From: Geoalkalibacter sp.
GTDB lineage: Bacteria; Desulfobacterota; Desulfuromonadia; Desulfuromonadales; Geoalkalibacteraceae
Length of the DNA stretch: 37,779 bases
Assembly: GCF_030605225.1 (NCBI RefSeq)
Contig: NZ_JAUWAV010000040.1
Span: forward strand, 1-37,779
Direction: 5' to 3'
Position 1 is the first letter of the stretch. The number at the start of each line of letters is the position of its first letter. Below, in pieces: positions 14,665 through 36,163 of this stretch. Under the pieces are notes generated by a model. The model was not told the DNA's origin, did no database searches, and saw nothing but the letters and a program-made list of their open reading frames with translations. The position numbers and the translations under genes were made by a program.

Positions 14665-14665
14665 C

Positions 14666-15664: not shown

Positions 15665-15676
15665 AGGGAGGCGCGC

Positions 15677-18164: not shown

Positions 18165-18512
18165 ATGGCTTCTCTTTCGACGGGGTGGGTGAGGCGGAAC
18201 CTGCGCGCCGCAAGGAAGGCGCAACCTTGGTGATTGTGCCAGTGGCGCATGGCAAAGATCAAGAATCTTCACCTGCTCAGGGTCAAGGGGAAGCGTTGCG
18301 GGGTCGGCAGGCGGCCCTAGACTTCGGCGGCGTTTGCGTGATGCAGTTTCAAAGAAATCTTGCCCTGTAAAATTCCAAAAAATTACAGCGTCTTAGGTCT
18401 TTCGGCCGAAAATTCACCGGCGCGCCGGGAGGCTGCCTAAACGACCTTTGCGGCCCGGATAAAAACCAAGATAAACCACTGTTTTGACAGGCATATTCAT
18501 CGCTAAAAGTGC

Positions 18513-18528
18513 ATACAGTATACTGTAT
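18513..18528. promoter_or_regulatory. 16-bp perfect palindrome, likely operator of the nuo operon
   Basis: ATACAGTATACTGTAT is a perfect palindrome 115 bp upstream of nuoA. It contains TATACT (18519-18524), a good -10 match, with TTCATC (18496-18501) 17 nt upstream as a weak -35. A repressor bound here would block the promoter. Geobacter HgtR is known to repress nuo and other energy genes; whether this is its site is a guess. Confidence 0.6.
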
Positions 18529-18535
18529 TTTTTCC

Positions 18536-18564
18536 TTGACAATGAACGGCAATTATCCTAACTT
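18536..18564 (+). promoter_or_regulatory. Alternative nuo promoter
   Basis: TTGACA (18536-18541), a 17-nt spacer and TAACTT (18559-18564; 3 of 6 matches). It lies just downstream of the palindrome, which would then sit directly upstream of the -35. Either this or the TATACT element could be the true promoter. Confidence 0.3.
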
Positions 18565-18643
18565 GCCTTGGCCTGAGACCACCTCGGGCGTCTAGGGGTG
18601 TTAGAAAATAGCAATAAAACATCGTTGGGAGGAGACGCTTTCT

Positions 18644-19000
18644 ATGCTTGACATCTATTTGCCGATTCTCGTCCTTATCGGAATTGCCGTGGCCTTTGCC
18701 ATCGGTTCGGTGGTTTTCTCCGGCCTGATCGGCATGAAAAAGCCGAGCGCCGTCAAGCTCTCTCCCTACGAGTGCGGTCTGTCGCCCGTCGGCAGCGCCC
18801 GCGAGAGGGTATCCGTCAAGTTTTATCTGGTGGCGGTGGCTTTCATCGTGTTCGATATCGAGGTGGTTTTTCTTTATCCCTGGGCGGTCGTCTTCAAGCA
18901 GCTGGGTTGGTATGGCGCCGCGGTCATGGGGGTTTTTCTTTTTGTTCTCATTATCGGCTTCATCTATGACTGGAAAAAAGGAGCACTGGAATGGGAGTAG
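18644..19000 (+). CDS. nuoA: NADH-quinone oxidoreductase subunit A
   Basis: A 118-residue membrane subunit of respiratory complex I with three helices. The conserved loop [24 protein letters not shown] (starting near residue 37) and the acidic second helix [14 protein letters not shown] identify it. GGGAGGAG precedes the ATG. First gene of the nuo operon; its end overlaps nuoB by ten bases. Confidence 0.97.
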
Positions 19001-19500
19001 ATCAGCCTCTGGGAAGCAATTTCGTCACCACCAGCCTGGACAAGCTCGTCAACTGGTCCCGGTCCCGCTCTCTCTGGCCCATGACCTTCGGTCTGGCCTG
19101 CTGCGCCATTGAAATGATGGCCACCGGCGCCGCCCGCTTCGACCTTGACCGTTTCGGTGTTCTGTTTCGCGCCTCGCCCCGTCAGGCCGACCTGATCGTC
19201 ATCGCCGGCACCGTGACCAAGAAGATGCTGCCGGTCATTGAGACGGTTTATGAGCAGATGCCCGAGCCCAAGTATGTCATCGCCATGGGCGCCTGTGCAT
19301 GCTCCGGAGGGATTTTCGATACCTACAGCACGGTGCAGGGAATCGACGAGGCCTTGCCCGTCGATGTCTACATTCCCGGTTGTCCTCCGCGTCCCGAGGG
19401 GCTGCTCTATGGCCTGCTCAAGCTTCAGGAAAAGATCATGAAGGAGCGCAACACCTTTGGTGCCGCCATCGGGCTGGGCGAGGTGGTCAGGGAGGTTTGA
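18991..19500 (+). CDS. nuoB: NADH-quinone oxidoreductase subunit B (cluster N2)
   Basis: A 169-residue subunit holding the terminal cluster N2, which reduces quinone. The ligands are the tandem Cys37-Cys38 in [11 protein letters not shown], Cys102 in [10 protein letters not shown] and Cys131 in PGCPPRPE. All are present. The reading frame begins inside the end of nuoA, suggesting translational coupling. Length is typical of short bacterial NuoB. Confidence 0.98.
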
Positions 19501-19548
19501 GCCCTGGCCGAGCGTTGATTCGAATACCTTGTTGATGAGGATAATGGC

Positions 19549-20040
19549 ATGACCGATCAGGTTGCTGTAGAAAAGCTCAAGGCCAAGTTTCCGGGCTCCG
19601 TGCTCGATGTCAAGGAGTTTCGCGGGGAGCTCACCCTCACGGTGAAGGCCGAGGACATCCTGGCCATCTGCACCTTCTGCAAGAAGGAGCTCGGCTACAC
19701 CATGCTCGCCGACCTGGCGGGCGTCGACCTGTCGGCGATGGGGGTGTCGGGCCCGCGCTTCCAGGTGGTCTACAACATCTACAACATCAAGGCCAAGCAA
19801 CGTCTGCGCCTCAAGGCCCCGGTGGAGGAAAGTCGGCCGCGCATCGACACGGTGAGCGGCGTCTGGGGGTCGGCCAACTGGCTGGAGCGCGAGTGTTGGG
19901 ATCTCATGGGGATTTCCTTCAATAACCATCCCGATCTGCGTCGCATCCTCATGCCCGACGATTGGGTCGGTCACCCGTTGCGCAAGGATTACCCGGTTCA
20001 GGGTCCGGATCGTGAACCCTACCAGGGCCGCCAGATCTGA
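19549..20040 (+). CDS. nuoC: NADH-quinone oxidoreductase subunit C
   Basis: A 163-residue 30-kDa-type subunit of the hydrophilic arm, separate from NuoD rather than fused as in E. coli. The C-terminal half has the family signature: ERECWDLMGISFNNHPDLRRILMPDDWVGHPLRKDYP region (about 117-151), read here in parts as ERECWDLMGI and GHPLRKDYP. GATGAGG precedes the ATG by a suitable distance. Confidence 0.97.
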   Translation: MTDQVAVEKLKAKFPGSVLDVKEFRGELTLTVKAEDILAICTFCKKELGYTMLADLAGVDLSAMGVSGPRFQVVYNIYNIKAKQRLRLKAPVEESRPRIDTVSGVWGSANWLERECWDLMGISFNNHPDLRRILMPDDWVGHPLRKDYPVQGPDREPYQGRQI

Positions 20041-20081
20041 CCGGAATGCATTCGTAAAACTCCAAAGGAACGAGGAACGCC

Positions 20082-21263
20082 ATGGCAGCGATGACCGAAA
20101 CCATGACCATAAATATGGGCCCCCAGCACCCTTCCACGCATGGGGTGTTGCGGCTTGTTCTGGAGCTTGACGGCGAAAACGTCGTCAAGGCGACGCCGCA
20201 TATCGGCTTTCTTCACCGCGGGGTGGAGAAGCTTTCCGAGTACCGCACGTACCATCAGGTCATTCCCCTGACCGACCGCCTCGATTATCTCGCGCCCATG
20301 AGCAACAATCTAGGCTATGTGCTGGCCGTGGAAAAGTTGCTGGGGATCACGGAGCAGATTCCCGAGCGCGCCAAGGTCGTCCGCGTGATGCTTGCCGAGT
20401 TGACCCGCCTCAAGAGTCACCTCGTGTGGCTCGCCTGCCATGCTCTCGATATCGGCGCCATGACCGTGTTCATTTACTGCTTTCGCGAGCGCGAGCACAT
20501 CATGGAAATGTACGAGAAAATTTCCGGCGCGCGCATGACCTCCAACTACTTCCGCGTCGGCGGGCTCTCCGCCGACCTGCCCGACGGCTTCGAGAAGAGC
20601 GTGCGCGAATTCATCGACGCCATGCCCGGCCACATCGATACGTACGAGGGTTTGTTGACCGGCAACAAGATCTGGCAGAAGCGCATCGTCGGCGTCGGCG
20701 TCATCAGCGGCGAGGACGCCCTGGATATCGGCATCACCGGCGGCAGTCTGCGCGGTTCCGGGATCGACTGGGACCTGCGCCGCGACCATCCGTACAGCGG
20801 CTACGAGGAGTACGACTTCAAGGTTCCGGTGCAGGACGGCTGCGATACTTGGGCGCGCTACAAGGTGCGCCTGGATGAGATGCGCGAATCCTGCAAGATC
20901 GTGCGCCAGGCTCTCGACAAGCTCAAGCCCGGCCCGATTCTCGCCGATGTCCCCAAGGTTTGTCTGCCGCCCAAGCAGAATGTGGTCAATACCATCGAGG
21001 GTCTGATCCATCACTTCAAAATCATCACCGAGGGGTTCAAGCCCGAAGCCGGCGAGGTTTATCAGAGCGTCGAGGCGCCCAAGGGCGAACTTGGATTCTA
21101 TCTGATTTCCGATGGTTCGGCACGGCCCTATCGTATGAAGATTCGTCCCCCATCCTTCCTCAATCTGCAGGCGCTGCCGCAAATGGTCGAGGGGCGACTG
21201 ATCGCCGACGTCGTCGCGGTCATCGGAACCCTTGACATCGTCCTTGGCGACATCGACCGTTAA
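20082..21263 (+). CDS. nuoD: NADH-quinone oxidoreductase subunit D
   Basis: A 393-residue 49-kDa-type subunit that forms most of the quinone pocket with NuoB. The N-terminal GPQHPSTHGVLR carries the quinone-site histidine, LDYLAPMSNN carries the conserved Tyr, and the C-terminus ends in the complex I form VLGDIDR rather than the hydrogenase CxxC. The start at 20082 has GAGGAA upstream; an ATG nine bases later is an alternative. Confidence 0.98.
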   Translation: MAAMTETMTINMGPQHPSTHGVLRLVLELDGENVVKATPHIGFLHRGVEKLSEYRTYHQVIPLTDRLDYLAPMSNNLGYVLAVEKLLGITEQIPERAKVVRVMLAELTRLKSHLVWLACHALDIGAMTVFIYCFREREHIMEMYEKISGARMTSNYFRVGGLSADLPDGFEKSVREFIDAMPGHIDTYEGLLTGNKIWQKRIVGVGVISGEDALDIGITGGSLRGSGIDWDLRRDHPYSGYEEYDFKVPVQDGCDTWARYKVRLDEMRESCKIVRQALDKLKPGPILADVPKVCLPPKQNVVNTIEGLIHHFKIITEGFKPEAGEVYQSVEAPKGELGFYLISDGSARPYRMKIRPPSFLNLQALPQMVEGRLIADVVAVIGTLDIVLGDIDR

Positions 21264-21289
21264 CCCAACGCCGTAGAGAGGTGTTCTTC

Positions 21290-21787
21290 ATGAGCAACGC
21301 GGAAGCGCAGGTGGTCCAGGAAGAAATCGACCTTGGCATGGCGAACAAGGTCATCGATAAGTATATCAACATGAAGGGCGCGCTCATGCCCGTCCTGCAG
21401 GAGGTGCAGGATGCTTACGGCTACCTGCCCGAGCCTTGCATTCACCTGATTTCGGAGCGCCTCAACGTCTATCTGAGTCAGATTTATGGGGTTTTGACCT
21501 TCTACGCTCAGTTCCATCTGGAGCCGCGCGGCAAGTACATCGTGCGTGTCTGCATGGGAACGGCCTGTCACGTCAAGGGCGCCGGCCGCATCGGCGATAC
21601 CCTCAGCGAATTGCTCGGCATCGGGCACGCCGAAACCACCGAGGATCTTAAGTTCACCGTCGAGCATGTCGCCTGCATCGGGGCATGTGGGATGGCGCCG
21701 GTCATCATGGTCAACGAGGCGACCTACGGGAGCATGTCCGTGCAGAAGATGAACGAAATTGTCGAAAAATACCGGGCGATGGATTAA
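21290..21787 (+). CDS. nuoE: NADH-quinone oxidoreductase subunit E
   Basis: A 165-residue 24-kDa-type subunit with a thioredoxin-like [2Fe-2S] domain (cluster N1a). The four ligands are Cys88, Cys93 (CMGTAC), Cys129 and Cys133 (CIGAC), all intact. I start it at the ATG at 21290, spaced from GAGAGG; a GTG nine bases upstream overlaps that ribosome site. Together with NuoF and NuoG it forms the NADH dehydrogenase module. Confidence 0.97.
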   Translation: MSNAEAQVVQEEIDLGMANKVIDKYINMKGALMPVLQEVQDAYGYLPEPCIHLISERLNVYLSQIYGVLTFYAQFHLEPRGKYIVRVCMGTACHVKGAGRIGDTLSELLGIGHAETTEDLKFTVEHVACIGACGMAPVIMVNEATYGSMSVQKMNEIVEKYRAMD

Positions 21788-21837
21788 CTGGTATCTCGCT
21801 TGGGGCAAACCTTCTTATAGCGTCGGGGATTTGATAT

Positions 21838-23619
21838 ATGGCCGCGATCGAAGAGCAAATCAGAGTTCTCATCTGCCAGGGGACGGGTGGTCTGGCCTCG
21901 GGGGCCAAGGAGGTCGAACTGGCCTTTCGGGCCGAATTCGAAAAACACGGCGTTGACGCCAAGGTCGGCAAGCGTTGCACGGTGGTTGGAACCGGATGTC
22001 GCGGGCTGTGCGCCAATGACGTGCTGGTCGATATCGTCATTCCGGGCCAGGAGGCGGTCACCTACGATTTTGTCAAGGCCGAACTGGTGCCGCAGCTGGT
22101 CGAGGAGCACATCCTCACCGGGCAGGTCGTCGAAAAGAAAAAAGCCGGTCCCTACTATCAGAAATTTCTCGAAAAGCAGATGCGCGTGGTGTTTTCGCGC
22201 TGCGGCACCATCGATGCCGAGAGTCTCGAGGATTTCCTGGCGCACGACGGCTTTGTCGGTATTCGCAAGGCGGTGACGATGAAGCCGCAAGAAGTCATCG
22301 AGGAAGTCAAGAAGTCCGGTCTGCGCGGCCGTGGGGGCGGTGGGTTCCCCACCGGCGTCAAATGGAGTTTCTGCGCCGCTTCGCCGGGAACGGACAAATA
22401 CCTGATCTGCAATGCCGATGAGGGCGACCCGGGGGCCTTCATGGACCGCTCGATTCTTGAAGGTGATCCCTATGGCCTCATCGAGGGCATGATGATCGCC
22501 TCCTACGCCATCGGCGCCAAGAACGGCTACGTTTATGTGCGTGCCGAATATCCCCTGGCCATCAAGCGCCTGCAAAAGGCCATCGATGTTTGTTACGAAA
22601 AAGGCTTTCTCGGGAAGAACTGCCTGGGGCTCGGGTTTGATTTTGACCTGCGCATCAAGGCCGGCGCCGGCGCTTTTGTCTGCGGCGAGGAGACCGCTCT
22701 CATGGCGTCCATCGAAGGCGAGCGCGGCATGCCCCGTCCCCGACCGCCCTTTCCCGCCGTGCGTGGTCTTTGGACCAAGCCGACCAACATCAACAACGTC
22801 GAAACCTTCGCCAACGTCTCCTACATTTTCTATCGCGGCGCCGAATGGTTTGCTTCCATCGGCACCGAGGGCACCAAGGGCACCAAGATTTTCGCCCTGA
22901 CCGGCAAGATCAAGCACACCGGGCTGGTGGAAGTCCCCGCCGGTATCACCATGCGTGAGGTTATCTACGACGTTTGTGGCGGCATTCTCAACAACCGCAA
23001 ATTCAAGGCGGTCCAGGCCGGGGGCCCCTCGGGCGGCTGCCTGCCCGGCGAGGCGATCGACGCGCAGGTCGATTACGATTCGTTGATCAAGGCCGGGGCG
23101 ATGATGGGCTCGGGCGGTCTGGTCGTCATGGATGAAACCACCTGCATGGTGGACATCGCCCGTTTCTTCCTCAACTTCACCCGCATGGAGTCCTGCGGCA
23201 AATGCGTTCCCTGCCGCATCGGTCTCAAGATCATGCTCGACATCCTGGAGCGGATCACCGAAGGCAAGGGACACCCCGGTGACATCGACCTGCTTCAGGA
23301 TATGTGTTTCGACATCAAGAAGGCCTCGCTCTGCGGCCTCGGTCAGACTGCTCCCAACCCCGTGCTCTCCACCATCCGCTACTTTCGCCATGAGTACGAG
23401 GCGCACATCGAACACCAGCGCTGTCCGTCGAATTCGTGCAAGTCGCTGCTGAAGTTCGAGGTGGTCGAAGCGGCGTGCAAGAAGTGCGGACTCTGTTTCA
23501 AGGTCTGCCCCGTGGACGCGGTCCGGTGGGAAAAAGGCCAGCTTGCCGTCATCGACAAGGATAAGTGCACTCGGTGTACGTCCTGCTATGACGCCTGCCG
23601 CTTCATGGCCATCGAATAG
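21838..23619 (+). CDS. nuoF: NADH-quinone oxidoreductase subunit F, extended form with N- and C-terminal ferredoxin domains
   Basis: A 593-residue protein, much longer than E. coli NuoF (445). The core has the FMN/NADH glycine-rich loop GLRGRGGGGFPTGVKW (161-176), NADEGDPGAFMDR, and the N3 cluster ligands ESCGKCVPC plus a later Cys in SLCGLGQ. The C-terminus adds two [4Fe-4S] motifs (CKKCGLCFKVCP and CTRCTSCYDAC). The N-terminus adds a thioredoxin-like [2Fe-2S] domain, as in HydB/HndC-type subunits of bifurcating hydrogenases and, as far as I recall, Geobacter NuoF. In that domain the second ligand of the usual C-x4-C is Gly18, leaving C13, C54, C58 and an extra C47. The added domains suggest exchange with ferredoxin or another carrier besides NADH. 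Confidence 0.95.
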   Translation: MAAIEEQIRVLICQGTGGLASGAKEVELAFRAEFEKHGVDAKVGKRCTVVGTGCRGLCANDVLVDIVIPGQEAVTYDFVKAELVPQLVEEHILTGQVVEKKKAGPYYQKFLEKQMRVVFSRCGTIDAESLEDFLAHDGFVGIRKAVTMKPQEVIEEVKKSGLRGRGGGGFPTGVKWSFCAASPGTDKYLICNADEGDPGAFMDRSILEGDPYGLIEGMMIASYAIGAKNGYVYVRAEYPLAIKRLQKAIDVCYEKGFLGKNCLGLGFDFDLRIKAGAGAFVCGEETALMASIEGERGMPRPRPPFPAVRGLWTKPTNINNVETFANVSYIFYRGAEWFASIGTEGTKGTKIFALTGKIKHTGLVEVPAGITMREVIYDVCGGILNNRKFKAVQAGGPSGGCLPGEAIDAQVDYDSLIKAGAMMGSGGLVVMDETTCMVDIARFFLNFTRMESCGKCVPCRIGLKIMLDILERITEGKGHPGDIDLLQDMCFDIKKASLCGLGQTAPNPVLSTIRYFRHEYEAHIEHQRCPSNSCKSLLKFEVVEAACKKCGLCFKVCPVDAVRWEKGQLAVIDKDKCTRCTSCYDACRFMAIE

Positions 23620-23653
23620 CCGAACCCCCCAGACGAACAAGGATGAGGTCAAG

Positions 23654-26137
23654 ATGGTAACTCTGACGATAGACGGACAGCAAATCAAAGTGAGCAAGTC
23701 GGCGACCATTCTCGATGCGGCCGCTGAAGCGGGAATCACCATCCCTGTGCTCTGCCACGCCAAGAAGCTTCTTCCCTACGGCGCCTGCCGCGTCTGCCTG
23801 GTCGAAGTCGAGCAGATGAAGGGGCGCTTGATCCCGGCCTGCACCACGCCGGTGACCGAGGGTATGGTGGTGACGACCCTGTCCCCGGAAATCAAGAAGG
23901 TACGCAAGACGGTTCTGGAGTTCCTGCTCGTCAACCATGTGATTGACTGCCCGGTCTGCGACAAGGGCGGCGAATGCGACCTGCAGGATCTGACCTATGA
24001 GTACGAGGTGACGACCAACCGCTTCAAGGATGCCAAATTCAACCTGGAAACCGATGAAAGAAACGCTTTCATCGAGCGCAACATGAACCGTTGCGTTCTT
24101 TGCGGCAAGTGCGTGCGCGTGTGCGACGAAATCGTGGCCTACGGGTCCTACAGCTTCATCAATCGCGGCTTCGATACCAAGGTGGCGACCGCCTATGACC
24201 GAGGCCTCGACTGTGAATTCTGTGGCCAGTGCGTTTCCATGTGCCCCGTGGGCGCACTTCTGCCGCGGCCGTTCAAATTCAAGGCCCGCCCTTGGCAACT
24301 CAAGGAAGTCGATACGGTGTGCGGCTATTGCGGCAACGGCTGCACGGTCACGCTCGGGGTCCTTGACAACAAGGTGGAGACGATCCGCTTCAACGATAAG
24401 ATCGGCGTCAATGACGGCAATCTCTGCGTGCGCGGCCGGTTCGGCTACTCCTTCATCAATGCCGAGGATCGCCTCAAGCGGCCCTTGGTGCGCAAAAACG
24501 GCAGGCTTGAGCCCGCGACCTGGAGCGAGGCCATCGACGCGGTGGCGGCCGGGTTTGAAAAGGCGCGCGCCGAAAAGGGCATCGGCATCCTCAGCGGCGG
24601 TCGCTTGACCAACGAGGAATATTTCTACCTCGGACATCTTGCCGACAAGGTGCTCAAGACCCCGCACCTCGATCACAGCGGCGGAGAATGCTATAAGGGC
24701 ATTACCCAGGGGCTGGCCGAAACTCTCGGGATCCAGGCATCGACTGGTACTTTCCCGCAGGTGGAAGAGTGCGATGCCATTCTGGCCATCCGCTCGGATT
24801 TCTACGAAACCCATCCGGTTTTCGGCATGGTGGTCAACCAGGCGGTGAAACGACACGAGGCCAAGCTGGCAATCATCAGCGACAAAAAGGGCAAACTGAC
24901 CAAACTGCCCGGCGCCAAAACCCTGCTCACCAAACCCGGCACCGAGGTCAGCGTGCTCAACGCCATGGCGCATGTTCTGCTGAGCGAGGGGTTGGCGGTC
25001 ACCGAGGGTGTGACCGGTGTCGAGGCATTGCGTGCTGCCTTGGCGGATTACGCGCCCCAGAACATCGCCGCGAAAACCGGTGTGTCCGCCGAGGGCATCG
25101 AGGCGGCGGCGCGCAATTTCGCCAAAGGAAAGAACAAGGCCATTCTTCTGGCCTACGGCATGCCCTACGGCGCCCAGGCGCGCGAACTCGGCATCGCCGC
25201 CGCCAATTTGGCGATCCTCGCCGGTGTCTGTGAGTGTGAAAAAGGCGGCCTGTATCTCTGCGGGGAAAAGGCCAACAGCCAGGGCGCCATCGACCAGGGC
25301 ATTTTGCCCCGCTCCAAGGGGATGGGAGCGCAGGCCATGCTGCAAGCCGCAGCGGAAGGAAATCTCTCGGCCCTCTATGTGATCGGCGAGGATCCGCTGC
25401 TGAGCTATCCCGACCGCGCCAAGGTCGCGGCGGCGCTCGACAAGGTTCCATTCCTGGTCGTCCAGGATCTTTTCCTGACCGATACGGCCCGCGAGGCCGA
25501 TGTCATTCTTCCCGCTGTATCCTTCGCGGAAAAGGATGGCACCTTCACCAACGCCGAACGTCGGGTTCAGCGGCTGCGCCCGGGCGTGAAAAGCCCCGGC
25601 GAGGCGCGCACCGACCTGGAGATTTTCTCTCTCCTGGCCGCGCGCATGAAAGATTCCCTGGTGTTCACCGGCCCTGCCGCGGTTTTTGCTGAAATCGCTC
25701 AATCCGTGCCCGCTTATCAGGGGTTGTCCTTTGGCGCCATCGGTCCCCAAGGTCAGGTTTGGGGCGGCGAGAGGCTCGCTCCGAAAACTCGTAATCTGGT
25801 GCCGGTTAAGGGTGCGGAACCCCTGGCCGCGCGGTTCCAGATGATTACGGGCAGCGCGCTCTATCACAGCGGAACGCTTTCGGTGAGGGCCAAGGGGCCT
25901 TTGTCCGCACTTCCGGAGCCCTATGCCGAATTCTGTCTGGAGGACGCCGCTGAACTCGGCATTGCCGAGGCGCAGACCGTCTGCATCAAGGGCAACGGTG
26001 AGGAACTTCGGCTCAAGGCCAAACTCGGCAAGCGCTTGCCCCGGGGCGTCGTTTTCGTTCCCTATCATTTCGGCAGCGCCGGCGTCAACCGGGTCTATCG
26101 CGGGGAGTCGGCCATCACCATCGAAGTCAGCAAGTAG
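23654..26137 (+). CDS. nuoG: NADH-quinone oxidoreductase subunit G
   Basis: An 827-residue subunit carrying the Fe-S chain. Visible ligands are [2Fe-2S] C34, C45, C48, C63; the His-ligated cluster H95, C99, C102, C108; two ferredoxin-type clusters C147-C157 and C187-C197; and a further four-Cys site C223, C226, C230, C258 of the N7/formate-dehydrogenase type. The rest is a molybdopterin-oxidoreductase-like fold. The start at 23654 (MVTLTIDG) follows AAGGATGAGG; sequence upstream in frame overlaps nuoF. A small finishing domain near the C-terminus resembles the molybdopterin dinucleotide-binding region, but complex I does not bind that cofactor. Confidence 0.96.
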   Translation: MVTLTIDGQQIKVSKSATILDAAAEAGITIPVLCHAKKLLPYGACRVCLVEVEQMKGRLIPACTTPVTEGMVVTTLSPEIKKVRKTVLEFLLVNHVIDCPVCDKGGECDLQDLTYEYEVTTNRFKDAKFNLETDERNAFIERNMNRCVLCGKCVRVCDEIVAYGSYSFINRGFDTKVATAYDRGLDCEFCGQCVSMCPVGALLPRPFKFKARPWQLKEVDTVCGYCGNGCTVTLGVLDNKVETIRFNDKIGVNDGNLCVRGRFGYSFINAEDRLKRPLVRKNGRLEPATWSEAIDAVAAGFEKARAEKGIGILSGGRLTNEEYFYLGHLADKVLKTPHLDHSGGECYKGITQGLAETLGIQASTGTFPQVEECDAILAIRSDFYETHPVFGMVVNQAVKRHEAKLAIISDKKGKLTKLPGAKTLLTKPGTEVSVLNAMAHVLLSEGLAVTEGVTGVEALRAALADYAPQNIAAKTGVSAEGIEAAARNFAKGKNKAILLAYGMPYGAQARELGIAAANLAILAGVCECEKGGLYLCGEKANSQGAIDQGILPRSKGMGAQAMLQAAAEGNLSALYVIGEDPLLSYPDRAKVAAALDKVPFLVVQDLFLTDTAREADVILPAVSFAEKDGTFTNAERRVQRLRPGVKSPGEARTDLEIFSLLAARMKDSLVFTGPAAVFAEIAQSVPAYQGLSFGAIGPQGQVWGGERLAPKTRNLVPVKGAEPLAARFQMITGSALYHSGTLSVRAKGPLSALPEPYAEFCLEDAAELGIAEAQTVCIKGNGEELRLKAKLGKRLPRGVVFVPYHFGSAGVNRVYRGESAITIEVSK

Positions 26138-26159
26138 GCGAATTCCGAGGAGGGACGCC

Positions 26160-27122
26160 ATGCAGTGTTCAAAATGTAACGCGCCCGTTTCCGCACAGGC
26201 GAAATTCTGCGATCAATGTGGAGCCAACCTTGCCGGGGATGCCGACTTCGTCCACGCCCGCGCCTTGGACCTCTTTCATCGCGGCATGATCGAGGAAGCG
26301 GTTCGCAACTGGGACGCCGTGTTGCAGATGAATCCCGCCTCGGGAACCGCTCACTACTACAAGGGGCTTGCTCTTTACGATCAGGGGGATCTCGAAGGCG
26401 CCGTGCAATGCTTTCAGAAAGCCCTGGCCGGTGAGAAGGATCGGTTTCGCGTCTATTTCAAGCTCGGCATGGCCCAGTACGGGCTCGGGGAGCTGAACGC
26501 AAGCATCGAGAGTTTCGGCAAGGCCGTGGCTCTCAATCCCAAAAGCGCCGAAACCCATTACCGCCTCGGTCTTTCCTATCTGCGCAACGCCGATCTGGGC
26601 AAAGCAGAGGAGGCGCTGCGGGAGGCCGCCCGGATCAATCCCGGTTATACGCGCGTTCTTTACATGCTTGGCATGGTTTATTCGCAAAAGGGCGATTATC
26701 TCTCCGCCATCGAGCAGTTTCGCCGGGTGGTGGAACTAAGTCCCACTTACACCGCAGCGCGTTTTGAGCTCGGCTTGGCCTATTTCAAGGAAGGCATGCT
26801 TGCCGAGGCCGCGGAGCAATTCAGTACGGCGGCCGAAACCAACGCCCGTTTCGCGCCCGCATTCTACATGCTGGCCGAGTCCAAGCGGCGCCTGGGGGAT
26901 TTCTCAGAGGCCATTGGTGTCTACCGAAAGGTTTTGGAGATCAATCCCAAGGATGCCGATGCCTGGGTGCGGATTGCCGAATGCAACATGCAGCTCGATT
27001 TTCTGGACGAAGCGCGCAAGGCCATCCAAAAGGCCCTCGCCATCAATCCCAGCCATCGCGAGGCGCAATATCTCAACAAGCATCTTGGGGAAATGGCCAC
27101 TCCCCACAAGCCTGGATTTTGA
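26160..27122 (+). CDS. Zinc-ribbon/TPR protein inserted in the nuo operon
   Basis: A 320-residue soluble protein. The N-terminus is a zinc-ribbon with CxxC pairs at C3/C6 and C17/C20. From about residue 31 come eight tandem 34-residue tetratricopeptide repeats with the usual Gly-Leu-Ala-Tyr and terminal Asn-Pro pattern. There is no signal peptide or membrane segment, so it is cytoplasmic. A GAGGAGG site sits just before the ATG, 22 nt after nuoG, and nuoH follows 34 nt later, so it is transcribed with complex I. TPR proteins bind other proteins; an assembly or scaffold role for the peripheral arm or its join to the membrane arm is an inference from position. It is not one of the 14 standard Nuo subunits. 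Confidence 0.9.
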   Translation: MQCSKCNAPVSAQAKFCDQCGANLAGDADFVHARALDLFHRGMIEEAVRNWDAVLQMNPASGTAHYYKGLALYDQGDLEGAVQCFQKALAGEKDRFRVYFKLGMAQYGLGELNASIESFGKAVALNPKSAETHYRLGLSYLRNADLGKAEEALREAARINPGYTRVLYMLGMVYSQKGDYLSAIEQFRRVVELSPTYTAARFELGLAYFKEGMLAEAAEQFSTAAETNARFAPAFYMLAESKRRLGDFSEAIGVYRKVLEINPKDADAWVRIAECNMQLDFLDEARKAIQKALAINPSHREAQYLNKHLGEMATPHKPGF

Positions 27123-27156
27123 TGAGATCATTTAAAACTTTGCAGAGAGGATTGCC

Positions 27157-28200
27157 ATGACGCCCGAGTTTGTGAGTCTCTCCAACAACTGGCCTTTGTA
27201 CCTGACCACGATGATCGTAAAGATTCTGGTGGTTTTTGTGGTCGTTATCCTGATCGTCGCCTACGCGACCTGGCTGGAGCGCAAGGTCATCGGCCATATG
27301 CAGACCCGTCTCGGCCCCATGGAGACCGGCTGGCACGGGCTCTTGCAGCCGATCGCCGACGGCCTCAAGCTGTTTTTCAAGGAAGACATCATTCCGGAGA
27401 AAGCAGCCAAGTTCACCTTTCTGCTGGCCCCGATGATGCTGCTGGTTCCCGCGTTCATCACCTTCGCGGTGGTACCATTCGGCCCCGACAAGGTGATCGG
27501 CGGATACCTGGTGCCGATGCAGATCACCGATCTCAACGTCGGCGTGCTCTATGTCTTGGCCATGGCCGGCCTGGGTGCCTACGGCATCGTTCTCGCCGGT
27601 TGGTCGTCCAACTCCAAGTACTCCCTGATGGGCGGTATCCGGTCCACGGCGCAGATGATCTCTTACGAACTCGCCGCCGGACTTTCCATCGTCGCGGTGT
27701 TCATGCTCTCGGAGACCCTGAGCCTGCGGGAGATCGTGGCGTTGCAGATGGAACCCTTGTGGGGCGCCATCAGCTTCTTGCCCAACTGGTACGTCTTCAG
27801 CCAGCCCCTGGCCTTCGGGTTGTTCATCCTGACCTCCCTGGCGGAAATCAACCGTACTCCCTTTGACCTTCCCGAGGCCGAATCGGAGTTGGTGTCCGGC
27901 TTCTGCACGGAATATTCCTCCATGAAGTACGCTTTGTTCTTCATGGCCGAATACGCCAACATGGTGGTCATCGCCGCGATTGCCGCGACTCTCTTCCTCG
28001 GCGGCTGGTCCGGGCCGTTCTTCGGTCCCATCAACCTTCTGCTCAAGATCCTGGCGTTCATGTTCTTCGCCATCTGGCTGCGCGCCACCATGCCGCGCGT
28101 CCGCTATGACCAGCTGATGACCATGGGCTGGAAGGTTCTCATTCCGCTGGCACTCGCCAATGTGATTGTCACCGGCGTGGTCGTCCTCCTGATGCAATAA
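27157..28200 (+). CDS. nuoH: NADH-quinone oxidoreductase subunit H
   Basis: A 347-residue membrane subunit with about eight to nine helices linking the quinone pocket to the proton pumps. Signatures are ERKVIGHMQTRLGPMETGWHGLLQPIADGLKL near the N-terminus (ERKVIGHMQTRLGP given in short), and the glutamate-rich cytoplasmic loop AEINRTPFDLPEAESELVSG (starting near 229). RBS-like AGAGAGG precedes the ATG. First membrane-arm gene after the TPR gene. Confidence 0.97.
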   Translation: MTPEFVSLSNNWPLYLTTMIVKILVVFVVVILIVAYATWLERKVIGHMQTRLGPMETGWHGLLQPIADGLKLFFKEDIIPEKAAKFTFLLAPMMLLVPAFITFAVVPFGPDKVIGGYLVPMQITDLNVGVLYVLAMAGLGAYGIVLAGWSSNSKYSLMGGIRSTAQMISYELAAGLSIVAVFMLSETLSLREIVALQMEPLWGAISFLPNWYVFSQPLAFGLFILTSLAEINRTPFDLPEAESELVSGFCTEYSSMKYALFFMAEYANMVVIAAIAATLFLGGWSGPFFGPINLLLKILAFMFFAIWLRATMPRVRYDQLMTMGWKVLIPLALANVIVTGVVVLLMQ

Positions 28201-28230
28201 AACCTGACTGAGGAGAAGAGGGATATAACC

Positions 28231-28626
28231 ATGTTCAAAGAATTCGCCAAAGGGTTGAGCATCACCTTCAAGCACTTGCTGCCGGGGCACAGCACGACCG
28301 TTCAGTATCCCCATGTCAAACTGACGCCCTCGGATCGCTTCCGCGGCCTGCATCGTCTGGTGCCGACCCAGGACCGGGAAAAATGCGTGGCCTGTTACCT
28401 GTGCCCCACGGTCTGCCCGGCCAAATGCATAACCGTTGAGTCGGCGGAGAACGAAAAGGGCGAAAAATATCCGAGGGTATACCAGATCGATCTGCTGCGC
28501 TGCATTTTCTGCGGCTACTGCGTCGAGGCCTGCCCGGTGGAAGCCATTGAAATGACCGGCGAGTACGAGCTGGCCAACTATCGACGGTCGGATTTCGAAT
28601 TCACCAAACAGCGTCTGCTGCGTTAA
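28231..28626 (+). CDS. nuoI: NADH-quinone oxidoreductase subunit I
   Basis: A 131-residue 2[4Fe-4S] subunit (clusters N6a/N6b) that relays electrons from NuoG to NuoB. Ligands are C52, C55, C58, C62 and C91, C94, C97, C101. The N-terminal amphipathic helix (FKEFAKGLSITFKHL) that packs on the membrane is present. It is shorter than E. coli NuoI (180) but within the range of many bacteria. GAGGAGAAG lies upstream. Confidence 0.97.
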   Translation: MFKEFAKGLSITFKHLLPGHSTTVQYPHVKLTPSDRFRGLHRLVPTQDREKCVACYLCPTVCPAKCITVESAENEKGEKYPRVYQIDLLRCIFCGYCVEACPVEAIEMTGEYELANYRRSDFEFTKQRLLR

Positions 28627-28646
28627 GGGGAAAGGAGCGAACCCTC

Positions 28647-29150
28647 ATGGAATTGCTGTTCTTTTATCTGGTTGCGCTGGTCGCGATCCTTTCCGCCTTT
28701 CTGGTGGTGAAGTGCAAGAACCCGGTCAACAGCGCCATTTCGCTGGTGATGACCTTCTTCTGTCTGGCGATTTTCTACGTCATGCTCTACGCCCCTTTCA
28801 TGGCGGCGGTGCAAGTCCTGGTCTACGCCGGGGCGATCATGGTTCTGATCCTGTTCGTCATCATGCTGCTCAACCTTGGGCCGGAAATGATGGAGCGCTT
28901 TCAGCACGGCGTGATCGGCGGGGCCATCGTCGCGGGCATTGTGATGGTTCAGGCGGTGATGTTCGTCAATCGCGGCAATACGGCTGGAATTTCCGGTGAC
29001 ATCACGCGTGAGAGGGTTTTGGCCGAGGGCCACATGGAACTGATTGGAATGAAGCTGTTCACCGAGTTCATGCTGCCTTTTCAGATCGCCGGGATCTTGT
29101 TACTGATTGCCATCGTGGGCGCCCTTGTGCTGGCCAAAAAAGAAGTCTAA
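28647..29150 (+). CDS. nuoJ: NADH-quinone oxidoreductase subunit J
   Basis: A 167-residue membrane subunit with five helices. The conserved third-helix stretch [22 protein letters not shown] ([17 protein letters not shown] in part, residues 56-72) is the pi-bulge helix of the family. It starts 20 nt after nuoI with AAAGGAG upstream, and nuoK follows closely. Confidence 0.96.
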
Positions 29151-29173
29151 ACGGGAACGGACAGGAGTCGATC

Positions 29174-29476
29174 ATGCTTACCGTTTATCATTATCTGGGA
29201 CTCAGCGCCATTCTCTTTGCCCTGGGCCCCTACGGGGTTCTGACCCGGCGCAATGCGATTGTCATCTTCATGTGCATCGAGCTCATGCTCAATGCAGTGA
29301 ACCTTACCTTCATCTCTCTTTCGAGCTATCTGAACAATCTCGACGGGCAGATCTTCGTCTTCTTCGTCATGTCGGTAGCAGCGGCCGAGGCCGCCGTCGG
29401 ACTCGCGCTGATGATCGCTTTCTTCCGCAACAAGGAGTCCGTGGAAGTCGAAGATTTCAACCTGCTCAAATGGTGA
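29174..29476 (+). CDS. nuoK: NADH-quinone oxidoreductase subunit K
   Basis: A 100-residue three-helix subunit, an MrpC homologue. The membrane glutamates in [13 protein letters not shown] and [12 protein letters not shown], needed for proton transfer in the family, are both present. ACAGGAG precedes the ATG. Length is exactly typical. Confidence 0.97.
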
Positions 29477-29520
29477 CAGATTTCTGATTCGATCCGATCT
29501 AATCGACAGAGGAGATGGAA

Positions 29521-31491
29521 ATGTACGACAAGCTATGGCTCATCCCGTTCTTCCCCCTGCTCGGCAGCATCATCAACGGGCTGCTGGGCAAGAAGATCAA
29601 AAACGAGAAAATCATCGGGGGCATCGGGACCCTGGCGATCTTCGCTTCCTTCATCGTTTCGGTGCTGTGTTTCATGGAGTTGCGCGCCGATTCGGTGAAA
29701 TCGCATCAGCAGGTGATCGCTTCCTGGATGTCCGTTGGCAACCTGCAGATCGAGTGGGGCTTTCTTCTGGATCCGCTCTCGGCGGTGATGCTGCTGGTGG
29801 TGACCGGCGTCGGCTCGCTGATCCATCTTTACTCCATCGGCTACATGCACGGCGAGGAAGGGTTCTACCGCTACTTCTCCTACCTCAACCTGTTCGCCTT
29901 CTCCATGCTCATGCTGGTGCTCGGCAACAATGCCATGGTCATGTTCGTCGGTTGGGAAGGCGTGGGTCTGTGTTCCTACCTGCTGATCGGCTACTACTTT
30001 CACAAACAGAGCGCCGGCGACGCCGCCAAGAAAGCCTTCGTGGTCAACCGCGTCGGCGACTTCGGCTTCCTGCTCGGGATTTTCCTGCTCTTTTGGACCC
30101 TCGGCAGCGAGCACGGCATCTGGACCCTCAATTTTGTCGAAATCGCCCAGCACGGCCATCTGCTCGGCGCGGGTAGCGCGGTGGTGACCACCATTACCCT
30201 GTGCTTCTTTCTTGGCGCCACGGGCAAGTCGGCGCAGATTCCTCTCTACACCTGGCTGCCCGACGCCATGGAAGGCCCCACGCCGGTTTCGGCGCTCATC
30301 CATGCCGCCACCATGGTCACCGCGGGCGTTTACATGATCGGGCGCATGAACGGACTCTTCGCCATGGCGCCCGACACCATGCTCGTCATCGCCATCGTCG
30401 GTGCCGCCACGGCCATCTTCGCCGCTTCCATCGGCCTGGCACAGAATGACATCAAGCGGGTGCTGGCTTATTCGACGGTGTCGCAGCTTGGCTACATGTT
30501 TCTCGCCATGGGCGTCGGCGCCTTCACGGCGGGCATTTTCCACCTCATGACCCACGCCTTCTTCAAGGCTTGTCTGTTCCTTGGTTCGGGATCGGTCATC
30601 CATGCCATGCATCATGCCCTGCACAAGGCTCATGCCCACGACGATCCCCAGGACATGCGCAACATGGGTGGTCTGCGCAAGCATATGCCCATCACCTTCC
30701 TGACCTTTTTGATCTCGACCATCGCCATTGCCGGTCTGCCGGGACTGTCGGGCTTCTTCTCCAAGGATGAAATCCTGCTGTGGTCCCTGGCCGGCAATCG
30801 CGGTCACTGGCTGCTGTGGTTGGTCGCCTCCCTGGCTGCCGGGATGACGGCCTTCTACATGTTCCGTCTGGTGTTCATGACTTTCTTCGGCAAGGAGCGC
30901 ATCGCCGAGAAAGCGAAGAGCTACCTGCACGAATCGCCTCTGGTGATCACCATCCCGCTGATGGTCCTGGCGGTGCTGGCGGTGTTCGGCGGCTATCTGA
31001 ACGTTCCGGCGGTGCTGGGCGGCGCCCATCGACTGGAGACTTTCCTCAGCCCGGTGTTCGGAGCGGCGCAGCAAGCTTACGGCATCGAGCCTCCCCATAT
31101 GAGCCATGCCGCTGAATATGGGCTCATGGGCTTGGCGACGGGCATCGCCCTGGTCGGCATCGGCCTGGCTTACCTCATGTATGTCAAGAACCCCGAGATG
31201 CCTGCCCAACTGGTGGCCAAGGCGCAGGGGCTCTACCGCGCGATCTTCAACAAGTGGTACGTGGATGAAATCTATGACGCCCTGTTCGTCAACCCGACCA
31301 AAAAGGCCGGCACGTTCCTGTGGAAGGGCTTTGACGTAGTGGTGGTCGACGGCATCGTCAATGGAGTGGGCTACATCGTCAAAGGGTTTTCCGGGGTGCT
31401 GCGCCTGACCCAGTCCGGGTTGGTGCATAACTACGCACTGGCCATGGTGGTCGGGGTGATTGTCATGGTGGCCTACTACGTCTTCGGCTGA
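29521..31491 (+). CDS. nuoL: NADH-quinone oxidoreductase subunit L (proton pump)
   Basis: A 656-residue antiporter-like subunit, the distal pump with the long lateral helix. Signatures are FVGWEGVGLCSYLLIGY with the pump Glu, the Lys in TGKSAQIPLYTWLPDAMEGPTPVSAL, and the LIHAATMVTAGVYM stretch. There are about 16 helices; residues after 560 form the lateral arm and the last anchor. I start at the second ATG (29521), six bases after GAGGAG; the first ATG (29515) touches that site. Confidence 0.97.
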   Translation: MYDKLWLIPFFPLLGSIINGLLGKKIKNEKIIGGIGTLAIFASFIVSVLCFMELRADSVKSHQQVIASWMSVGNLQIEWGFLLDPLSAVMLLVVTGVGSLIHLYSIGYMHGEEGFYRYFSYLNLFAFSMLMLVLGNNAMVMFVGWEGVGLCSYLLIGYYFHKQSAGDAAKKAFVVNRVGDFGFLLGIFLLFWTLGSEHGIWTLNFVEIAQHGHLLGAGSAVVTTITLCFFLGATGKSAQIPLYTWLPDAMEGPTPVSALIHAATMVTAGVYMIGRMNGLFAMAPDTMLVIAIVGAATAIFAASIGLAQNDIKRVLAYSTVSQLGYMFLAMGVGAFTAGIFHLMTHAFFKACLFLGSGSVIHAMHHALHKAHAHDDPQDMRNMGGLRKHMPITFLTFLISTIAIAGLPGLSGFFSKDEILLWSLAGNRGHWLLWLVASLAAGMTAFYMFRLVFMTFFGKERIAEKAKSYLHESPLVITIPLMVLAVLAVFGGYLNVPAVLGGAHRLETFLSPVFGAAQQAYGIEPPHMSHAAEYGLMGLATGIALVGIGLAYLMYVKNPEMPAQLVAKAQGLYRAIFNKWYVDEIYDALFVNPTKKAGTFLWKGFDVVVVDGIVNGVGYIVKGFSGVLRLTQSGLVHNYALAMVVGVIVMVAYYVFG

Positions 31492-31533
31492 GAGCGCCCA
31501 ACCCCTGTAAAGTTGAGATAAGGAGTGATTTCC

Positions 31534-33096
31534 ATGACCGACCACCTGTTGAGCCTGATGACATTTTTCCCGATTCTCGGGATGGTATTGCTGTTGTTCA
31601 TCCCCAGGGACAATCATGGGCTGCTCAAGAGCTTCACCCTGGTCGTGACTCTCGTCACCTTTTTCATCAGCCTGCCGCTGGCCTTTGACGATGTATTCAA
31701 AACCTCGGCGGCATTTCACTACACGGAATTCGCCCGCTGGATCAGCGTGGGCGACTATTTCCAGATGAACTACAACATCGGCGTCGACGGGATCAGCCTG
31801 TGGCTGGTGCTGCTCACGACCTTCATCATGCCGGTGACCGTTTTGTCGACCTGGAAAGCCGTGGACAAGAACGTCAAGGGCTTCATGGCGCTGATGCTGC
31901 TGCTCGAAACCGCCATGCTCGGCGCCTTCATCTCCCTCGACCTGTTCCTGTTCTACATCTTCTGGGAGCTGATGCTGATCCCCATGTACTTCATGATCGG
32001 TATCTGGGGCGGCAAGAACCGCATCTACGCCGCAGTCAAGTTCTTCATCTACACCGCCGTCGGCTCGCTGCTCATGCTGGTGGCCATCATCTACGTCTAC
32101 TATCTGTCCCTGCAATCCGGCATCGCCTTCGAGAACGGCTTCAGCATCCTGCATTTCTATCGTCTCGACATTCCCCTGGATCTGCAGATCTGGCTGTTCC
32201 TCGCGTTCGCATTCAGCTTCGCCATCAAGGTGCCTATGTTCCCGGTGCACACCTGGTTGCCGGATGCCCATACCGAAGCGCCGACCGCGGGCTCGGTCAT
32301 TCTGGCGGCCATCCTGCTGAAAATGGGAACCTACGGCTACCTGCGCTTCGCCATGCCGTTGTTCCCCGATGCGACGCTCAAGTTCATCCCCTTCCTCTCG
32401 GTACTGGCGGTGATCGGGATTATTTATGGTGCGCTGGTCGCCATGATGCAGGATGACGTGAAGAAGCTGGTCGCCTACTCCTCGGTGTCTCATTTGGGCT
32501 TTGTCATGCTCGGTCTTTTCGCCCTCAACCTGCAGGGCTTTTCCGGCGGCATGATTCAGATGATCAACCACGGCATTTCCACCGGCGCGCTGTTCCTTAT
32601 CGTCGGCTTCATCTATGAGCGGCGTCACACCCGCCTGATCGCCGACTTCGGGGGGCTGGCCAAGCAGATGCCGGTGTTTGCCACCATTTTCATGATCGTC
32701 ACCTTCTCCTCCATCGGTTTGCCCGGCACCAACGGTTTCGTCGGCGAATTCCTCATTCTCATGGGCGCCTTCGAGAGCGATTTGCGCTGGTTTGCGGTGA
32801 TCGCCACCACCGGCGTCATCTTTGCCGCCGTCTACATGCTGTGGATGTTCCAGCGGGTGATGTTCGGTGAGTTGAAGAACCCCGCCAATCAGAAGCTGCA
32901 GGATCTCAACGCCCGCGAAGTGGCGCTGATGATGCCGCTGCTGCTGTTTGTTTTCTGGATCGGTCTGTATCCCAACACCTTTTTCGAAAAGATGAATCCG
33001 GCTTTAGAGAATATGGTGCAGCAGATCAAGGTCCGGCAGCTGGCCCAGGGCGAGGTGGTCGATACCCTGGCTCATCATGAGGCACTGCTGAAGTAA
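31534..33096 (+). CDS. nuoM: NADH-quinone oxidoreductase subunit M (proton pump)
   Basis: A 520-residue antiporter-like subunit with about 14 helices. The pump glutamate lies in IFWELMLIPMYFMIGIWGG and the channel lysine in AIKVPMFPVHTWLPDAHTEAPT; VGEFLILMGAF near the C-terminal part is also typical. The ATG at 31534 is correctly spaced from AAGGAG; a GTG at 31525 overlaps that site. It follows nuoL by about 40 nt. Confidence 0.97.
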   Translation: MTDHLLSLMTFFPILGMVLLLFIPRDNHGLLKSFTLVVTLVTFFISLPLAFDDVFKTSAAFHYTEFARWISVGDYFQMNYNIGVDGISLWLVLLTTFIMPVTVLSTWKAVDKNVKGFMALMLLLETAMLGAFISLDLFLFYIFWELMLIPMYFMIGIWGGKNRIYAAVKFFIYTAVGSLLMLVAIIYVYYLSLQSGIAFENGFSILHFYRLDIPLDLQIWLFLAFAFSFAIKVPMFPVHTWLPDAHTEAPTAGSVILAAILLKMGTYGYLRFAMPLFPDATLKFIPFLSVLAVIGIIYGALVAMMQDDVKKLVAYSSVSHLGFVMLGLFALNLQGFSGGMIQMINHGISTGALFLIVGFIYERRHTRLIADFGGLAKQMPVFATIFMIVTFSSIGLPGTNGFVGEFLILMGAFESDLRWFAVIATTGVIFAAVYMLWMFQRVMFGELKNPANQKLQDLNAREVALMMPLLLFVFWIGLYPNTFFEKMNPALENMVQQIKVRQLAQGEVVDTLAHHEALLK

Positions 33097-33142
33097 TACT
33101 TTGAAAGATTTGGCATAACACCGCATCCGGAGGAGCGTTTCA

Positions 33143-34603
33143 ATGGAAAACCTGGTGCAAGATGCAATCCAGAATGTCAACTTGGCGGCCGTCATGCCGT
33201 CCCTGGTCCTGTGCTGTTTCGGGCTGGCGATTCTGATGATCAGCGTTTTTTCGCCCAAGGGCAAAACGACGCATGTCGCCTGGCTCAGCTTCGCCGCGTT
33301 GCTGGTCACCGGGGTGGTGTCCCTGATGGGTTGGAACAACCGTCAGGTCGGCTTTTACGGTGCGGTTGAGTTGGACAATTTCGCCACCTTCTTCAACATC
33401 ACGTTTATCGTCGCCGCTGCCTTGACGATCCTCATGTCCGATGATTACCTCAAACGCGAGGGCTATCCCATCGGCGAATACTATCCCCTGATTCTGTTCA
33501 CCACCGCCGGGGCCATGTGGATGGCTTCCGGTACCGACCTCATGACCATTTTCCTCGGCCTTGAAGTTCTTTCCATCAGCCTCTACGTGCTGGCCGGATT
33601 GTTCCGGAATCAGTTGCGGTCCAACGAGTCGGGTCTCAAGTATTTCCTGCTCGGGTCCTTCTCCACGGGCTTTCTCCTCTATGGGGTGGCTCTGATTTAT
33701 GGTGCCACCGGAACAACCAAATTGGCCGGGATCGCCGAAGCACTGCGCGCCGGCGGCGACGTCCTCTCCAATCCCATGCTGGTGGCCGGCATGGTGCTGC
33801 TCAGCACCGGCTTCCTGTTCAAAATCGCCGCCGCGCCCTTCCACATGTGGACTCCGGACGTCTATGAGGGGGCGCCGACACCGGTGACCGCCTTCATGAG
33901 CGCCGGTCCCAAGGCGGCTGCCTTTGCCGCTTTCATGCGGGTTTTCGTGGTTGGCCTCGAAGGCATGTCCGACCAGTGGACCGGGCTGCTTTGGGCGCTT
34001 GCCATTTTGACCATGGTGGTCGGTAACGTCGTCGCCATTTCGCAGACCAACATCAAGCGGATGCTCGCCTATTCCTCCATCGCTCACGCCGGCTACGCCC
34101 TGGTCGGCATGGTGGCGATGAATGAAGTCGGACTGTCCGGCATTCTGTTCTACATGCTCGCCTACACTTTCATGAATCTCGGCGCCTTCGCCGTGCTGGT
34201 GCTGGCGGGCAAGAAGGGCGAGGACAACCTGACCCTGGACGGCTTTGCCGGTTTTGGTTACCGCCGTCCTTTCCTCGGCGTGGCTCTGGCCATCTTCCTC
34301 TTTTCGCTGATGGGTCTTCCGCCGACCGCTGGTTTCGCCGGCAAGTTCTTCATCTTCGCCGGGGCGATCAAGGCCGGCTATATCTGGCTGGCGGTACTCG
34401 GCATTCTTGCCTCCGCGGTTTCGCTGTACTACTATCTGCGCGTCATGGTGGTCATGTACTTCCGCGAACCTACCGAGGATTTCGCCTGGGTGAAAATGCC
34501 CGCTGGTGCCATGCTCTCCATCGTGCTGGCGATCGTCGGTGTTCTGCTGCTCGGGATTGTTCCCGGACCCGTCATGGAGCTGGCGAAGCTGGCGATTTTC
34601 TGA
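33143..34603 (+). CDS. nuoN: NADH-quinone oxidoreductase subunit N (proton pump)
   Basis: A 486-residue antiporter-like subunit with about 14 helices. Typical segments are FLGLEVLSISLYVLAG with the pump Glu, FKIAAAPFHMWTPDVYEGAPTPVTAF with the channel Lys, and AYSSIAHAGYALVG. CCGGAGGAG lies before the ATG. Last gene of the nuo operon; it is followed by a palindrome and a strong terminator. Confidence 0.97.
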   Translation: MENLVQDAIQNVNLAAVMPSLVLCCFGLAILMISVFSPKGKTTHVAWLSFAALLVTGVVSLMGWNNRQVGFYGAVELDNFATFFNITFIVAAALTILMSDDYLKREGYPIGEYYPLILFTTAGAMWMASGTDLMTIFLGLEVLSISLYVLAGLFRNQLRSNESGLKYFLLGSFSTGFLLYGVALIYGATGTTKLAGIAEALRAGGDVLSNPMLVAGMVLLSTGFLFKIAAAPFHMWTPDVYEGAPTPVTAFMSAGPKAAAFAAFMRVFVVGLEGMSDQWTGLLWALAILTMVVGNVVAISQTNIKRMLAYSSIAHAGYALVGMVAMNEVGLSGILFYMLAYTFMNLGAFAVLVLAGKKGEDNLTLDGFAGFGYRRPFLGVALAIFLFSLMGLPPTAGFAGKFFIFAGAIKAGYIWLAVLGILASAVSLYYYLRVMVVMYFREPTEDFAWVKMPAGAMLSIVLAIVGVLLLGIVPGPVMELAKLAIF

Positions 34604-34608
34604 TAAAG

Positions 34609-34622
34609 AAACGGATCCGTTT
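34609..34622. repeat. 14-bp perfect palindrome after nuoN
   Basis: AAACGGATCCGTTT begins five bases after the nuoN stop, upstream of the terminator. GGATCCGT occurs again at 34671 just beyond the terminator, so the terminator is flanked by direct copies. Function unknown; it may help stabilise the 3' end. Confidence 0.4.
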
Positions 34623-34635
34623 CGACCTGGCCTCC

Positions 34636-34666
34636 AAAACCCCTCGCCTCGGCGAGGGGTTTTTTT
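34636..34666 (+). terminator. Rho-independent terminator of the nuo operon
   Basis: CCCCTCGCC (34640-34648) pairs with GGCGAGGGG (34651-34659), giving a tight four-base effective loop, followed by seven T residues (34660-34666). An A-run precedes it, so it could also act on the other strand. Confidence 0.93.
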
Positions 34667-34693
34667 GTGGATCCGTGCACGGCGGGATAAAAT
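34665..34693 (+). promoter_or_regulatory. Candidate promoter giving a leaderless ubiD-like mRNA
   Basis: TTGTGG (34665-34670), a 17-nt spacer and TAAAAT (34688-34693; 5 of 6 matches). The expected start, about seven bases after the -10, falls on the ATG at 34700, and there is no Shine-Dalgarno site. Confidence 0.4.
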
Positions 34694-34699
34694 AGAGTC

Positions 34700-36085: not shown

Positions 36086-36163
36086 GCGCCCGCGTTCCTG
36101 TCCGCGCAAGCTCAATCGCTCGGTCGCGCGGCGAGTCGTAAGGGCGATGGCAAGGATGAATCC

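Follow-up and report, generated by a model that had tools for sequence, protein, structure and literature searches.

A conserved zinc-ribbon/TPR gene at the nuoG/nuoH boundary in one bacterial order, also carried by genomes in which this type of complex I was not found

Why should an operon for complex I carry, exactly between the genes for its peripheral arm (B-G) and those for its membrane arm (H-N), an additional gene for a protein with a zinc ribbon and tetratricopeptide repeats (TPRs), and does the product serve complex I alone? We refer to this 320-aa protein, encoded at positions 26160-27122 of the analysed window (the whole 37,779-nucleotide stretch of a Geoalkalibacter sp. contig), and to its gene as T. 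Judged from sequence comparison, T is a real gene, conserved within one order as an accessory member of the nuo operon, and is not confined to genomes with complex I. No description of the gene was found in the open-access papers covered by our limited search terms. To our knowledge, few dedicated helpers of bacterial complex I have been described; a conserved extra gene whose tail and groove are defined targets for mutation makes it testable what helps to build the complex.

Gene T, its setting and its protein

All of nuoA-N are present in the window, in order, with T inserted after nuoG. The features are as follows.

18644..34603, plus strand: whole nuo gene run, order nuoA-G, T, nuoH-N (sequence matches)
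23651..26137, plus strand: nuoG, the gene preceding T (sequence matches)
26147..26154, plus strand: putative ribosome-binding site of T, GAGGAGGG (read from the sequence)
26160..27122, plus strand: gene T, 320-aa zinc-ribbon/eight-TPR protein (ORF with ATG start; present in 40 of 98 genomes, counting that of the window)
26160..26231, plus strand: predicted N-terminal zinc ribbon, residues 1-24, with C3, C6, C17 and C20 (Pfam Zn_Ribbon_1, 29.9 bits, cut-off 25)
26241..27056, plus strand: eight 34-residue TPRs, residues 28-299 (register; 16 helices in the AlphaFold2 model; Pfam TPR_2)
27057..27092, plus strand: C-terminal capping helix, residues 300-311 (AlphaFold2 model)
27099..27119, plus strand: C-terminal tail TPHKPGF, residues 314-320 (pLDDT below 50 for residues 316-320; conservation of TPHK)
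27157..28200, plus strand: nuoH, the gene after T (sequence matches)
34700..36085, plus strand: UbiD-family gene after nuoN (sequence matches; a relative follows T in family f4, below)

The nuoG stop codon lies 22 nt before the ATG of T, the putative ribosome-binding site GAGGAGGG ends 5 nt upstream of this start codon, and 34 nt separate the T stop codon from nuoH. In a scan of positions 18000-37000, no plus-strand terminator-like site fell in either of the two gaps flanking T, while the region held 40 terminator-like sites (17.7 in shuffled sequence) and one promoter-like match, at 36971 and so downstream of nuo (shuffled mean 6.2). A terminator-like stem followed by a run of thymines stands directly after nuoN (34646-34660) and possibly marks the operon end.

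The sequence-only reading had described a protein with a CxxC-x10-CxxC ribbon and eight uninterrupted TPRs between nuoG and nuoH, and this description holds in full; the conserved tail TPHKPGF is additional to it. The cysteines at residues 3, 6, 17 and 20 make up the two CxxC knuckles, are invariant in all 38 aligned T sequences and, with residues 1-27 scanned alone, score above the Zn_Ribbon_1 cut-off, so that a zinc ribbon is predicted. Zn_Ribbon_1 is not among the best 25 of the 36 Pfam families matched by the whole protein, all 25 of which are TPR or other helical-repeat models. The repeat register is exactly 34 residues throughout residues 28-299, and the score of 175.7 bits for Pfam TPR_2 (cut-off 27) places T in the TPR clan. 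The AlphaFold2 model, built from the 38-sequence alignment, has a mean pLDDT of 94.8 and shows 16 TPR helices and the capping helix, with the last five residues (316-320) below 50 and disordered in the model. As no obvious signal appears in its sequence, the protein is probably cytosolic.

The best structural matches overall are designed consensus TPR (CTPR) proteins (TM-score 0.80 to 8chy and 0.74 to 9qhb), which indicates that T is an unusually regular TPR array; these matches are designed proteins without natural function. The highest-ranked natural folds in the PDB search are those of the O-GlcNAc transferase/SPINDLY TPR superhelix (1w3b, 6eou, 7y4i), with TM-scores of 0.77 to 6eou and 0.62-0.67, by query length, to 1w3b. 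This superhelix binds partners in its concave groove. Unlike O-GlcNAc transferase, T has no transferase domain among its matches, and we know of no report of anything like its ribbon or tail in O-GlcNAc transferase or SPINDLY. The best NCBIfam match is the magnetosome TPR protein MamA (NF040959, PDB 3vtx), which has a similar tandem TPR array; the 159.7 bits scored by T lie below the family cut-off of 200 and place it outside that family, the best-matching stretch (residues 128-261) comprising TPRs only.

Distribution of T and its place in the nuo operon

At E ≤ 1e-60, T was matched in 40 of 98 genomes, counting that of the window, and a search of 277 genomes of the class at E ≤ 1e-35 returned the identical 40, all within the window's order. 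Among 395 genomes drawn from the phylum (E ≤ 1e-30), 11 were matched, five in the order and six elsewhere; the latter six matches are 27-32% identical and begin at residue 34 or later, hence without the ribbon. By these comparisons T is an orthologous family of one order and not a chance ORF. A scan of named genomes gave 27 loci, comprising four distant TPR matches and 23 T genes from records of Geoalkalibacter, Geothermobacter, Desulfuromonas/Desulfuromonadales and Pelobacter. The nearest relative is in a Geoalkalibacter MAG (88%). The window's genome has one full-length copy, its 16 further matches (E ≤ 0.001) all being partial and 20-35% identical.

Window-type nuoG and nuoH occur on one contig in 55 of the 98 genomes. 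Wherever T and both genes share a contig (27 of 27 testable genomes, the window included), T stands between them, so that its place at the boundary, as first read from the window, is conserved. In these 27 it starts 15-29 nt after the nuoG match, and the distance to the nuoH match is 37-94 nt in all 28 of them, the 28th being genome G056, where T lies at a contig edge 61 nt before nuoH. An in-frame TAA is reported in this G056 copy (L031, G056:C157:121-1077).

In a further 28 genomes T is missing and nuoG and nuoH adjoin on one contig, 49-110 nt apart. Many genomes, then, encode this type of complex I without T, although the gene for a complex I subunit is expected wherever the complex is encoded. 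Relocation was rejected as an explanation: a family-profile search found no T ortholog elsewhere in any of 19 genomes without it (14 among the 28 junction genomes, 5 others); 16 gave nothing at 1e-25, and the other 3 gave four partial TPR matches between them.

These junctions bear on the proposal that T is an added, stable subunit docking the extended NuoEFG module, which was expected to co-occur with the extended NuoF. No specific co-occurrence emerged: NuoF aligns over its full 593 residues in 24/24 operons with T and in 25/25 without, and a link between T and the NuoF extension was rejected on that ground. Nor was a docking site apparent in the Nuo proteins, where one column of 4963 across 14 subunits depended on T and 300 random labellings gave a mean of 1.04, with 169 of the 300 reaching 1; as no Nuo residue tracks T, direct docking receives no support. 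T also evolves at about twice the rate of the concatenated Nuo proteins and persists where no 49-kDa subunit was found (below). The conserved position speaks for a subunit, as does the absence of T from both operons examined that lack the EFG genes. Weighing both sides, T is not a core subunit, an added subunit is unlikely, and docking on NuoEFG in particular is very improbable.

The two operons just mentioned are of the window type and lack nuoE, nuoF and nuoG, with 11 genes (A-D, H-N) at 8815-18980 of L123 (G044) and 6331-16707 of L124 (G067); families f18 and f8 contribute one genome each. The remaining f18 and g43 genomes have no window-type NuoG match either.

On a tree of 12 concatenated Nuo proteins from 49 genomes, the presence of T requires five changes by parsimony, which midpoint rooting allows to be read as five losses, the midpoint being the sole basis of the root. 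Across the 24 shared genomes, T and Nuo distances correlate (r = 0.78), with T about 2.1 times faster (median ratio 2.13). This is the correlation that common descent would give; the trees differ in places, for example at G025.

Outside family f4, T is absent from all eight genomes that lack window-type nuoG and nuoH (79-100% complete), in keeping with a close link between T and nuo. This pattern and the fixed position in 27 of 27 genomes favour a dedicated assembly factor, acting on Nuo proteins only, for example at the joining of the peripheral (B-G) and membrane (H-N) arms. Some other bioenergetic complexes have assembly factors built of TPRs, such as Ycf3, which serves the assembly of photosystem I; T itself scores 53.2 bits against the Ycf3 model NF002725 (cut-off 143) and lies outside that family. 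The 28 operons without T count against such a dedicated factor, as do the genomes considered next.

Retention of T in Pelobacter and relatives

In family f4 (Pelobacter and relatives), T occurs in 12 of 14 genomes at 50-53% identity, the two without it being 67% and 86% complete, and window-type nuoG or nuoH was found in none of the 14. All 12 f4 genes are located outside nuo, and no nuo match was obtained at these loci at 1e-8. The expectation that relatives would keep T inside nuo is thus borne out by the 27 of 27 genomes outside f4 and contradicted by f4. In 10 of the 12 loci pcnB precedes T (contig edges truncate the remaining two), hyuA/hyuB-like genes follow it in 8, and a UbiD-family gene lies downstream in all 12. 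In the window, nuoN is followed by a related UbiD gene, as it is in many genomes of the order whether or not they carry T; hyuA or hyuA/hyuB follow nuoN in L055, L059 and L105; and the order T-ubiD-slp in G066 and G078 mirrors the nuoN-ubiD-slp of the window. Because of these shared UbiD/hyu/slp flanks, nuo was likely lost around T, and the f4 locus is likely a former nuo site. According to published work (PMC2923632), Pelobacter carbinolicus has retained one NADH dehydrogenase I and no longer has any of the fourteen structural genes of another, and the loss proposed here agrees with what that source states for this species.

The UbiD neighbour was considered as a partner of T and rejected, since it also follows nuo in genomes without T and so marks the site, not T. 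Found after nuoN with or without T, the UbiD-family gene at 34700-36085 is a possible quinone-related neighbour of complex I.

Complex I of another type is present in part of this family. A distant NuoD (44-53% identical) was found in 10 of the 14 f4 genomes, and G008 and G028 each carry a second nuo operon. Second, distant complex I operons with NuoD 44-48% identical were recorded at L077 (G008), L079 (G028) and L078 (G000:C19); querying all three with T gave nothing at 1e-8. Three f4 genomes that carry T (G039 and G066, 99-100% complete, and G078, 89%) gave no match for NuoD, the 49-kDa subunit, at 1e-8 and none for PF00346, while G000, G008, G028 and G011 do match PF00346. A factor specific to complex I is expected to be absent where complex I is absent, and T is present in these three. 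These three genomes speak against a strict tie between T and the presence of complex I.

The f4 gene is, by our estimates, under purifying selection: dN/dS is 0.04-0.28 in the 47 pairs listed out of 55, and 0.05-0.12 in 6 of 7 pairs tried for nuo-located copies, the seventh being saturated, these values being rough as many dS exceed 1. Selection on T without this complex I, and its unchanged groove in the three genomes without a detectable 49-kDa subunit, weigh against the dedicated assembly factor, which we regard as quite unlikely notwithstanding the evidence from position. The assembly role put forward in the sequence-only reading thus survives as a possible function, given the eight non-f4 genomes in which T and nuo are absent together, and is unlikely to be the sole one.

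Retention in f4 is also what a passenger would show, that is, a gene of unrelated function placed in nuo merely for co-expression with respiration. The same is suggested by the several losses of T on the Nuo tree, which left no mark on the Nuo subunits, whereas the invariant position in the 27 testable nuo-bearing genomes, across many families, and a tail that goes with nuo (below) argue against it. We consider a passenger somewhat unlikely.

Groove, tail and a possible adaptor role

We take the concave groove to be formed by positions 2, 5, 9, 12 and 13 of each TPR, following the TPR literature. Mean identity at these positions is 0.83 against 0.62 at other non-signature positions (permutation p 5e-5), with 17 of 40 groove positions invariant against 18 of 160 others; within f4 alone the values are 0.84 and 0.71 (p 0.0014). 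The TPR signature positions score 0.81, so that conservation in the groove matches that of the fold. Of 18 residues checked singly, 17 are identical in all 38 sequences (27 nuo-located and 11 f4), the sole exception being Y168, which is F in f4.

The tail behaves differently, in that TPHK is found in 25 of 27 nuo-located copies versus 0 of 11 f4 copies; the full TPHKPG(F/Y) forms the C-terminal end in 23 of the 27. The f4 copies are a single lineage (FastTree support 0.99), so the loss of the tail together with nuo counts as one event and not as a repeated correlation. The association adds to the case for a dedicated assembly factor and, with the tail conserved in 25/27 and missing in 11/11, is the second point against a passenger. 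The only nuo-located copies without TPHK are G029 and G040, of one shared genus (Geothermobacter-type), in which T diverges fastest relative to Nuo (2.94-2.97 against the median of 2.13); a relative, G009, has no T. As G029 and G040 keep nuo and T without the tail, the tail is not strictly required.

Several other explanations of the tail were considered. A DNA or RNA element was rejected, since the synonymous codons of the tail vary among T copies. A motif shared with another protein of the genome was likewise rejected, the degenerate 15-base HKPGF pattern occurring once in G000, inside T (a reversed control pattern also occurred once). Binding of the tail in the protein's own groove is unlikely because the groove is unchanged in the tail-less f4 copies. 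The tail may serve as a docking or recognition motif, its target being something made along with nuo.

Our preferred reading, held tentatively at a probability of about 0.4, is that T is an accessory adaptor encoded with complex I, whose groove binds a partner other than a Nuo protein and whose tail may dock on complex I. The groove, mainly that of TPRs 2-5 (Y66, Y73, D74, R97, Y107, E131, Y134, R142, R165 and Q176), would hold this partner. Those residues stay invariant also in genomes that yielded no complex I, and the partner is therefore probably something other than a subunit of Nuo. The f4 protein may instead have acquired a new partner, against which the conservation of the groove argues. 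Counting against the adaptor reading as a whole are the single lineage behind the f4 pattern, the tail-less Geothermobacter-type copies, the joint absence of T and window-type nuo in the eight genomes outside f4, and the column scan in which no Nuo residue followed T. The tail could, more tentatively, dock on complex I or an assembly intermediate, a role suggested by its absence from f4, the family without this complex I. T would thereby recruit a general factor, such as a chaperone or a maturation factor, to complex I during its assembly, at the point where the peripheral and membrane arms meet. Stated in full, a two-ended adaptor would link complex I biogenesis to a general factor, held by the groove and recruited at the arm junction through TPHKPGF, and the Pelobacter lineage would have lost complex I and the tail while keeping the groove function; we regard this complete scheme as rather doubtful.

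That a helper need not be confined to Nuo has a precedent in the chaperone-like E. coli MoxR ATPase pair RavA-ViaA, which is reported to interact with NADH:ubiquinone oxidoreductase I (PMC3893208) and also with fumarate reductase (PMC10585395). RavA-ViaA consists of a MoxR AAA+ ATPase and a VWA-type partner, whereas no ATPase is among the best 25 of the 36 Pfam families matched by T.

Family f4, with T and without this nuo operon, offers a natural experiment that separates the roles of T with and without complex I. Major defects are reported for Geobacter sulfurreducens with transposon insertions in its Chloroflexi-like complex I operon GSU0338-GSU0351, described as less well characterised (PMC5585712); we infer that this operon is a candidate counterpart of the one in the window.

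Upstream of nuo, an Rnf-type cluster occupies positions 12457-16878, and many relatives likewise have rnf-like genes ahead of nuoA. Between the cluster and nuoA lie two ORFs (16986-17549 and 17572-17952) that gave no Pfam match at E ≤ 1 and were matched in three loci from the same genus, L050, L102 and L103.
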